NCBI RefSeq assembly: GCF_003382365.1
Contig: NZ_QTSU01000004.1
Coordinates: 1-64,000 of the forward strand
Length of the DNA stretch: 64,000 nt
Reading direction: 5' to 3'
DNA from: Lysobacter silvisoli
GTDB lineage: Bacteria > Pseudomonadota > Gammaproteobacteria > Xanthomonadales > Xanthomonadaceae
The stretch's first letter is position 1, and each line of letters begins with the position of its first letter. The notes below the pieces were generated by a model. That model made no database searches, was not told the origin of the DNA, and was given only the letters and a program-made list of their open reading frames with translations. Below are positions 21,544 through 23,997 of the stretch, piece after piece. A program made the translations under genes and the position numbers.

Positions 21544-23997
21544 ATGCTGGAGCAGTACGGTTTGACCTTGGCGCTGGCTTGCGCCGTCATCGCGATCCTC
21601 TACGGGATCATTTCCGCGCGCTGGATCAGCGCACAACCCGCCGGCAACGAACGCATGCAGGAGATCGCCGGCGCGATCCAGGAAGGCGCGCGCGCCTACC
21701 TCAACCGCCAGTACACCACCATCGCCATCGCCGGCGCGGTGCTGTTCGTGGTCATCGGCTTCTTCCTGAACTGGCACACGGCGATCGGTTTCCTGATCGG
21801 CGCGGTGCTGTCGGGCGCGGCCGGCTACATCGGCATGAACGTATCGGTACGCGCCAACGTGCGCACCGCCGAAGCCGCGCGCAAGGGCATCGGCCCGGCC
21901 ATGGACGTGGCGTTCCGCGGCGGCGCGATCACCGGCATGCTGGTGGTGGGCCTGGGCCTGCTCGGCGTGGCCGGCTACTGGCTGGTGCTGGGCAAGATGG
22001 GCGTGACCGGCGAAGCCGCGCTGCACGCGCTGGTCGGCCTGGCCTTCGGTTCCTCGCTGATCTCGATCTTCGCGCGACTGGGCGGCGGCATCTTCACCAA
22101 GGGCGCCGACGTGGGCGCGGACCTGGTGGGCAAGGTCGAAGCCGGCATTCCCGAGGACGACCCGCGCAACCCGGCGGTGATCGCCGACAACGTGGGCGAC
22201 AACGTCGGCGACTGCGCCGGCATGGCCGCCGACCTGTTCGAAACCTACGCGGTCACCGTGATCGCGACCATGCTGCTGGGCGGGCTGATGATGGCCCAGG
22301 CCGGCACCCACGCGGTGCTGTACCCGCTGGTGCTGGGCGGCGTGTCGATCATCGCCTCGATCATCGGCGCCTTCTTCGTCAAGGTGAAGGCGGGCGGCTC
22401 GATCATGGGCGCGCTGTACAAGGGCGTGATCGTGTCGGCGGTGCTGGCGGCGATCGCGTTCTATCCGATCACCAAGGAGCTGATGGCCGATTCCAGCTAC
22501 GGGGCGATGAACCTGTACTGGTGCGCGCTGATCGGCCTGGTGCTGACCGGCGCGATCGTGTGGATCACCGAGTACTACACCGGCACCCAGTTCAAGCCGG
22601 TGCAGCACGTGGCCGCCGCGTCCACCACCGGTCACGGCACCAACATCATCGCCGGCCTGGGCGTGTCGATGAAGTCGACCGCGCTGCCGGTGATCGCGGT
22701 GTGCCTGGCGATCTGGGGCGCGCACGCGCTGGGCGGGCTGTACGGCATCGCCATCGCCGCGACCTCGATGCTGTCGATGGCCGGAATGATCGTGGCGCTG
22801 GACGCCTACGGTCCGATCACCGACAACGCCGGCGGCATCGCCGAGATGTCGGAGCTGCCGCCGGAGGTGCGCAACATCACCGATCCGCTGGACGCGGTGG
22901 GCAACACCACCAAGGCGGTGACCAAGGGCTATGCGATCGGCTCGGCCGCGCTGGCCGCGCTGGTGCTGTTCGCCGACTACACCCACAACCTGCAGGCCGC
23001 GCATCCGGGCGCGGTGTTCTCCTTCGACCTGTCCGACCACTACGTGATCATCGGCCTGCTGATCGGCGGCCTGATCCCCTACCTGTTCGGCGCGATGGCG
23101 ATGGAGGCCGTGGGCCGCGCCGCCGGCGCGGTGGTGGAGGAAGTGCGGCGCCAGTTCCGCGATATCCCCGGGATCATGCAGGGCACGGGCAAGCCGCAGT
23201 ACGACAAGGCCGTGGACATGCTGACCAAGTCCGCGATCAAGGAAATGATCGTGCCGTCGCTGCTGCCGGTGGCCGTGCCCGTGGTGGTGGGCCTGCTGCT
23301 GGGTCCGAAGGCGCTGGGCGGCCTGTTGATCGGCACCATCGTCACCGGCCTGTTCGTGGCCATTTCGATGACCACCGGCGGCGGCGCCTGGGACAACGCC
23401 AAGAAGTACATCGAGGACGGTCACCACGGCGGTAAGGGCTCGGAAGCGCACAAGGCCGCGGTCACCGGCGACACCGTCGGCGACCCGTACAAGGACACCG
23501 CCGGCCCGGCGATCAACCCGCTGATCAAGATCATCAACATCGTCGCCCTGCTGCTGGTGCCGCTGCTGCCGGCCGATACCGGCGCGGCCGGTGCGGCATC
23601 CGCGGCCGGTCACGGCGCGCCGGTGGCGGCCGCGTCCCTGCAGGCGCCCGCCGCGGCTGACGGCAGCACGGTGCAGGCCGGGGCGGACAGCAAGGCCACG
23701 CTGTACTTCGAAGTCGGCTCGGCCGCGCTGCCGGCCGATTTCGAGACCGCGCTGTCGGGCGTGTACCACCGCATGCAGCGCGATCCGGCGCTGAAGGCGC
23801 GCGTGTCCGGCTTCCACGACCGCAGCGGCGACCCGGCGGCCAACGCCGAGTTGGCCAAGCAGCGCGCGTCGGTCGTGCACGATTGGCTGATCGCGCAGGG
23901 CATCGCGGCCGAGCGCGTGAGCATGGACAAGCCGGCCGAGACCACCGGCGACGGCAATGCGAACGATGCGCGCCGGGTGGAAGTGCTGGTGGAGTAA
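21544..23997 (+). CDS. hppA: K+-independent proton-pumping pyrophosphatase fused to an OmpA-like domain
   Basis: An 817-residue protein. Residues 1 to about 675 are a complete membrane pyrophosphatase (about 16 helices), which couples PPi hydrolysis to proton export. Seen: [39 protein letters not shown] (substrate and Mg loops, about 195-235), [11 protein letters not shown], and [16 protein letters not shown] near the end. Lys457 in GNTTKA marks the K+-independent proton-pumping class. A linker rich in Ala/Gly (about 676-712) leads to an OmpA-like domain (713-817) with F-E-V-G-S-A, the Asp of H-D-R-S-G and Arg of A-R-R-V-E-V that bind diaminopimelate. Since the enzyme's C-terminus faces outward, that domain could grip peptidoglycan. 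Confidence 0.94.

Follow-up and report, generated by a model that had tools for sequence, protein, structure and literature searches.

The window analysed here, a 64,000-nucleotide stretch of Lysobacter silvisoli DNA (contig NZ_QTSU01000004.1, positions 1 to 64,000), carries an open reading frame (ORF) in which a proton-pumping membrane pyrophosphatase (PPase) is extended by an Ala/Gly-rich linker and a C-terminal OmpA-like domain (Table 1). This tail is a copy of a short-loop OmpA module that recurs on several energy-converting complexes, a recurrence that is new as far as literature searches show. The PPase-OmpA fusion itself is already known, and the ORF is a further member of it.

Table 1. 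Features of the window discussed in the text
Feature	Position	Strand	Details and basis
H+-PPase fusion ORF	21544-23997	+	817 aa, without internal stop
H+-pyrophosphatase core, K+-independent type	21544..23565	+	residues 1-674, up to final membrane helix; PF03030, PDB relatives 4av3/8b37, model
Lys457 of GNTTKA, K+-independent class marker	22912..22914	+	translation, alignment
Ala/Gly-rich linker	23566..23697	+	residues 675-718, 44 aa; pLDDT, lengths in relatives
OmpA-like domain, short-loop subfamily	23698..23994	+	residues 719-817
Asp759 (GFHDRSG), place of diaminopimelate-contacting Asp	23818..23820	+	alignment
Arg774 (AKQRAS), place of diaminopimelate-contacting Arg	23863..23865	+	alignment
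Diphosphate-dependent phosphofructokinase (PPi-PFK), conserved neighbour	17051..18307	+	NF010675, 630.5 bits
Soluble inorganic diphosphatase (ppa), conserved neighbour	26368..26922	+	NF002317, 280.1 bits; synteny
~340-base repeat with internal hairpins	24138-24477	+	
~340-base repeat with internal hairpins	27033-27368	-	
~340-base repeat with internal hairpins	59950-60287	+	
Thiamine pyrophosphate (TPP) riboswitch	39012-39113	-	61.1 bits

The enzyme half is complete, as stated in the original prediction made from this sequence: the Pfam match to PF03030 spans residues 15-671 and profile positions 1-645 of 645 (926.3 bits, E = 1.5e-278), and the catalytic motif DNVGDNVGD is intact in the translation together with Lys457. 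This Lys in GNTTKA, which we take to be the mark of the K+-independent class and from which that class had been predicted, lies in a segment (G453-A458) that is invariant, along with the catalytic motifs, across an alignment of 35 PPases. Domain and motifs thus support a K+-independent-type H+-pyrophosphatase, for which K+-free H+ transport driven by pyrophosphate (PPi) is predicted; the NCBIfam label "sodium-translocating" given to the product is a family name and not a measurement. The ORF is the sole H_PPase gene found in its own genome, and its nearest named relative, from Lysobacter sp. Root916 (L012; such handles for loci, genomes and genera are ours), matches it at 91% over all 817 residues. 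Alignments to the 11 closest PDB sequences (4av3, 8b37, 4a01 and others) stop at residues 674-678, and the tail is therefore an addition to the PPase.

The predicted C-terminal OmpA-like domain is recognised by Pfam with significance (PF00691, residues 721-794, 46.2 bits against a curated cut-off of 27.2), so that the refuting outcome named with the original prediction, absence of such a hit in a profile search, did not arise. A structure model and fold comparison likewise predict an OmpA-like fold, with MotB structures, Pal-TolB and YfiB-YfiR among the fold matches. Asp759 and Arg774 occupy the places of the two diaminopimelate-contacting residues, in line with the original prediction, and their equivalents are kept in 56 of 56 tailed PPases and in 109 (Asp) and 110 (Arg) of the 110 module copies examined. 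The last loop of the module is shortened and reads KPxxTTG...EARRVEV, while the ordinary OmpA domains displayed beside it end in NRRVE or similar; the canonical long last loop with NRRVE is absent from the tail, and the Pfam match ends at profile position 76 of 98. We regard this loop as a variant within the OmpA family and not as a score-based exclusion from it. The more specific NCBIfam models stay below their cut-offs, both for the whole protein (YiaD, 55.1 against 175 bits; Pal, 27.2 against 125.35; OmpA, 34.9 against 277) and for the tail alone (MotB, 20.8 against 250). In the full-length model, linker residues 679-713 have a predicted local distance difference test (pLDDT) score below 50, and where linker length could be taken, in 54 of 56 tailed PPases, it ranges from 27 to 90 residues. 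A chance or low-complexity OmpA match is ruled out by the Pfam cut-off, the predicted fold and the recurrence of the tail in 18 of 18 genomes of the genus, and a frameshift fusion of two genes by the single open frame and by the same fusion in many genomes. A derivation from one of the other OmpA genes in this genome was also rejected: at 157.4 bits the tail stands alone there as a subfamily member, the next-best OmpA domain reaching 42.3.

Two profiles were used to follow the tail, A1 being built solely from PPase tails and A2 being a broader module profile; a limited number of candidates was scored per genome, so that misses are possible. The family of the window is called Xanthomonadaceae here (Lysobacteraceae at NCBI), its nearest named relative being Root916 and the PPases of named Lysobacter, Xanthomonas and Stenotrophomonas being interleaved. 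PF03030 is present in 283 of 297 genomes of this family. Surveying the same genomes for the tail with A1, a check proposed with the original prediction, gave two modes: 55 genomes match at 104 bits or more, and the next score is 65 bits. Of these matches, 52 lie in frames of at least 824 residues, as expected of a PPase fusion, and three (G240, G269, G279) in frames of 166-261 residues. The tail is present in all 18 genomes of the window's genus, its own included (at least 119 bits to the tail profile), and is patchy in other genera. A scan of named genomes with six patterns, one of them a tail peptide, returned at least 591 loci; among the best 80, which were kept, five carry an OmpA tail (L012, L020, L047, L048, L091) and one (L081) is cut by a contig end.

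Searching 399 genomes taken as Burkholderiales with A1 yielded 82 matches at E ≤ 1e-18 in 58 genomes. The order, that of G518, is so called in the wide GTDB sense, as deduced from PPases that pair with those of Variovorax (L171/L047, 99*) and Glaciimonas (L165/L048, 92), the asterisk here and below marking starred branches. Energy-converting proteins host 45 of the 82 copies, namely PPase (23, a share inflated by the making of A1 from PPase tails only), the cytochrome oxidase subunit II CtaC (10), the photosynthetic reaction-centre cytochrome PufC (8), the cbb3 oxidase subunit CcoP (3) and a cytochrome c (1). The other hosts are small one-helix proteins (22), DUF937 proteins (5), BON-like proteins (4), membrane-fusion proteins of the resistance-nodulation-division (RND) type (3), an exported protein (1) and two unclassified proteins (L217, L221). 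At least one bioenergetic host occurs in 38 of the 58 genomes and two different ones in 7. Host labels were assigned by blastp to seed proteins, with Pfam or NCBIfam applied to 21 proteins (L158, L190 and L217 giving OmpA matches only), and by eye for L177 (exported), L280 (small), L286 (PPase, a 149-residue fragment with the last helix) and L215 (cytochrome c, borne out by Pfam). The profile databases recognise ccoP in three proteins (297-385 bits), PufC in two (470 and 489 bits) with two more by Pfam, and CoxB in one (190 bits) with three more by Pfam COX2; PF00691 is over its cut-off in each.

By contrast, ordinary OmpA domains were found on bioenergetic hosts in none of 28 controls, judged by blastp matches to the bioenergetic seeds at E 1e-3. 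These controls, 19 loci fetched from the second mode of the A2 search in the phylum and 9 from the window's own genome (L003 and L004 being one protein, hence 27 proteins), come from other genomes than the 82 copies, and one of them (L248) has a 21-residue match to a DUF937 seed. The difference is significant with PPases (45/82 against 0/28, Fisher p = 1.8e-8) and without them (22/59 against 0/28, p = 3.9e-5). Across 329 genomes of the phylum, A2 gave 14 matches of at least 109 bits in 11 genomes, with the next at 74 bits, and all 14 lie in genomes already found by the family and order searches with A1. A survey of the class gave a match in 6 of 369 genomes, the window's own included, and adds relatives in three of them: L160, a one-helix protein with repeated domains, scores 106 bits, L161 scores 85 and L162 scores 70. 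By eye, no consistent partner was seen next to seven module loci, of which six were of the one-helix and one of the BON type. The original prediction had called the arrangement unusual; the architecture is already in print (PMC11210485), and the tail is not confined to the pump, since the same subfamily sits on oxidases and PufC. Searches of a library of open-licence PMC papers yielded no report of this OmpA domain on oxidases or PufC.

Individual hosts show further arrangements. PufC proteins with a C-terminal module are encoded at L229, L233-L235, L282 and L287-L289, and HlyD/CusB-type membrane-fusion proteins with a C-terminal module at L236 and L283 (by Pfam) and L285 (by blastp). At L215:2016-3596 the module lies mid-protein, between two cytochrome c segments, and is not terminal.

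The history of the fusion was followed on a core tree of 148 of 159 PPases, 57 of them tailed, from which near-duplicates and cores below 380 residues were left out; seven more tailed g16 genomes lie outside the trees, and L162, a doubtful protein (65 bits) from a metagenome-assembled genome, was left out of the tail tree and the residue counts. Starred branches require at least 10 changes between the tailed and the tail-less state, and parsimony counts 20. Tail-less L092 falls in a trio with tailed L093 and L094 (99*), L102 groups with three tailed rows (89), and 12 of 93 tail-less PPase frames continue past the core by a C-terminal stretch of over 25 residues, mostly Ala/Pro-rich. This suggests that the tail was lost.

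Mosaic PPase genes with a second-clade core and an own-genus-like tail were observed at L142/L264, L144/L265, L133, L135 and L136. In genera g16 and g14, the PPase core of some genomes belongs to a second deep clade (100*), and the tails resemble those of their own genus. The eight g16 tails that the tree contains share a single branch (98*), though the cores of L142 and L144 lie in the second clade; among g14 tails, L135 pairs with L151 (97*), and L133 and L136 go with L098 (92, not starred). Residue identities follow the same lines: L142 shares 229/328 positions of the earlier core and 77/99 of the tail with L145 of the same genus, against 242/300 and 51/99 with L133 of the same core clade, while L135 shares 212/308 and 76/99 with L151, against 283/313 and 61/99 with L136. 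Conservation over the final 120 core residues (103-118 of 120 identical) is too high for placing the switch. At the g16 loci that were fetched, PPi-PFK is found upstream of the PPase with either core type (L264, L265; L266, L277), consistent with an exchange of the PPase core in place while the tail stayed genus-like. Over the 57 tailed PPases, core and tail distances are still correlated (r = 0.49; none of 999 permutations reached this value). The tail tree, built on 99 columns and 110 rows, is unrooted, the intended generic-OmpA outgroup having come out empty; on it 3 changes are required for PPase tails from the window's family and 13 for the others, with at most one forced by starred branches.

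In three groups from the window's family, with 5, 9 and 6 sequences, the ratio of nonsynonymous to synonymous rates (dN/dS) has medians of 0.23, 0.37 and 0.26 in the tail, 0.56, 0.71 and 0.45 in the linker and 0.13, 0.15 and 0.10 in the core. Four Burkholderiales sequences, taken as a fourth group, give 0.09 for the tail, 0.17 for the linker and 0.06 for the core, but with dS near saturation (3 of 6 tail pairs saturated). By these ratios the tail is under purifying selection and the linker is weakly constrained.

The gene setting is shared beyond the tailed loci: PPi-PFK, ppa or both lie within the fetched stretch around the PPase in 23 of 23 examined loci of the window's order, tailed or not. 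A link of the tail to PPi-metabolism genes was rejected on the strength of these 23 loci, as the neighbours are there with and without it. Two copies of the ~340-base repeat (24138-24477 and 27033-27368) are inverted around an adenosine-deaminase-like gene and ppa, and the genome holds at least 40 near-full-length copies with 88-100% identity, the three of the window included (40 of 207 candidates were scored).

It appears most likely, with a probability of about two in three, that the tail serves to tether the pump to the cell wall, the binding being read from the ligand residues and the modelled fold. The C-terminus of PPases is periplasmic by established topology, as are those of CtaC, CcoP and PufC, which supports the periplasmic placement of the tail that had been predicted; all four proteins convert energy, are located in or on the inner membrane and have their C-terminus in the periplasm. 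An inner-membrane, PPi-driven proton pump would thus carry a folded OmpA-like domain on a flexible linker some 44 residues long. From the periplasm, this domain would bind meso-diaminopimelate stem peptides of peptidoglycan and hold the pump non-covalently at the wall, possibly limiting its diffusion, setting its placement or keeping complexes grouped or separate. Such tethering is favoured because a tether would be laid out in this way, as a disordered linker (27-90 residues) that leads to a wall-binding fold. The tail would be accessory and dispensable for catalysis and pumping, since close relatives without it exist, and the pump's own reaction is probably untouched by it, because tail-less close relatives such as L013 (92% core identity) sit in the same PPi-PFK/ppa setting.

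Several points weigh against tethering. We know of no binding, localisation or topology experiment on any member of the subfamily, and OmpA-like domains can bind proteins too, as in Pal-TolB and YfiB-YfiR among the fold matches. The last loop of the subfamily departs from canonical OmpA and lacks the Asn of NRRVE, and one PufC copy (L229) has lost the Asp. In addition, 91 of the 148 PPases in the tree are tail-less and the tail state has changed at least 10 times, so that any benefit of the tail must be conditional. The tail also evolves faster than the core, synonymous sites included; its higher dS implies that it also mutates or recombines more than the core.

The same observations can be read in other ways. 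The tail could be a docking or assembly domain that binds a periplasmic protein or the like-tailed complex next to it, grouping complexes without any wall contact. The protein partners in Pal-TolB and YfiB-YfiR, the sharing of the module by several bioenergetic proteins and the pairs of different hosts in 7 of 58 genomes speak for this. It is nevertheless unlikely: 109 (Asp) and 110 (Arg) of the 110 copies retain the diaminopimelate-contacting residues, 51 of the 58 module genomes do not reach two different bioenergetic hosts, and the sole subfamily copy in the window's own genome (157.4 against 42.3 bits) would lack a like partner.

The repeated switches between tailed and tail-less cores (at least 10 on the tree) and the mostly Ala/Pro-rich extensions of 12 of 93 tail-less frames, as if a domain had been lost, would also suit a near-neutral passenger, i.e., a mobile domain that lands on tolerant C-termini and is lost again. 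Such a passenger would hardly be expected to remain under purifying selection with its ligand-type residues intact, to be kept in 18 of 18 genomes of one genus, or to place over half of 82 copies on energy-converting proteins when none of the ordinary OmpA controls is so placed; we consider this account improbable. Least probable is a stress sensor, in which wall contact or tension would act through the linker on pump activity. MotB, which is among the fold matches and couples wall binding to its channel, offers a general precedent, but the linker of the PPase fusion is predicted to be disordered, varies from 27 to 90 residues and is weakly constrained, and would therefore be ill suited to transmit force or a signal.

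The usual view of respiratory and photosynthetic complexes is that they diffuse in the inner membrane, or that lipids and supercomplexes order them. As a broader and more tentative proposal, with odds a little short of even, a dedicated wall-binding OmpA subfamily would act in Burkholderiales as a plug-in anchor that fixes bioenergetic complexes (the PPi pump, subunit-II and cbb3 oxidases, the reaction centre) to peptidoglycan, and in Xanthomonadaceae, as sampled, on the pump alone. These findings hint that some bacteria tie their energy machinery to the cell wall. If one family of wall-binding tails does serve several complexes, it would be a genetically encoded way of fixing energy conversion to the wall. 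The idea would be testable, since a domain of about 100 residues could be removed without touching the enzyme, and tailed and tail-less pairs within one family provide natural controls.

The closest known system is the K+-insensitive membrane PPase of Paucibacter sp. KCTC 42545, described in the accessible text of a 2024 review as an 810-residue protein that ends in an OmpA-like domain (about 110 residues) whose role has yet to be explained, with relatives given in its Table 2 and Fig. S4 legend (PMC11210485). It has the same architecture as the ORF, its sequence (WP_058719013) being compared by description only. That text names Burkholderiales and unspecified proteobacteria and mentions neither ligand residues nor oxidase or PufC hosts; its main text contains "Lysobacter" and "peptidoglycan" 0 times, and its 2 occurrences of "Xanthomon" belong to a plant-effector paper. 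From the peptidoglycan-binding C-terminal domains of OmpA, Pal and OprF (PF00691; 3td4, 3td5, 1oap, 5u1h), the tail differs in being borne by an inner-membrane pump and in its shorter last loop, KPxxTTG...EARRVEV, where those domains end in P...N...GRAQNRRVE. A possible parallel in photosystem I is offered by Gloeobacter PsaB (PDB 7f4v chain aB), energy-converting like the PPase, whose C-terminal residues 757-863 match A2 (E = 1.9e-9); this protein is cyanobacterial, however, and its match is weaker than those of many ordinary OmpA domains listed. In the accessible text of the eLife paper on the Gloeobacter photosystem (PMC9000952), "C-terminal", "peptidoglycan" and "extension" occur 0 times.

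MotB resembles the ORF product in that it sits in the inner membrane and, past its membrane helix and linker, ends in an OmpA-like domain of the wall-anchor type. It differs in being a one-helix stator subunit anchored for torque, whereas the ORF product is a complete pump.
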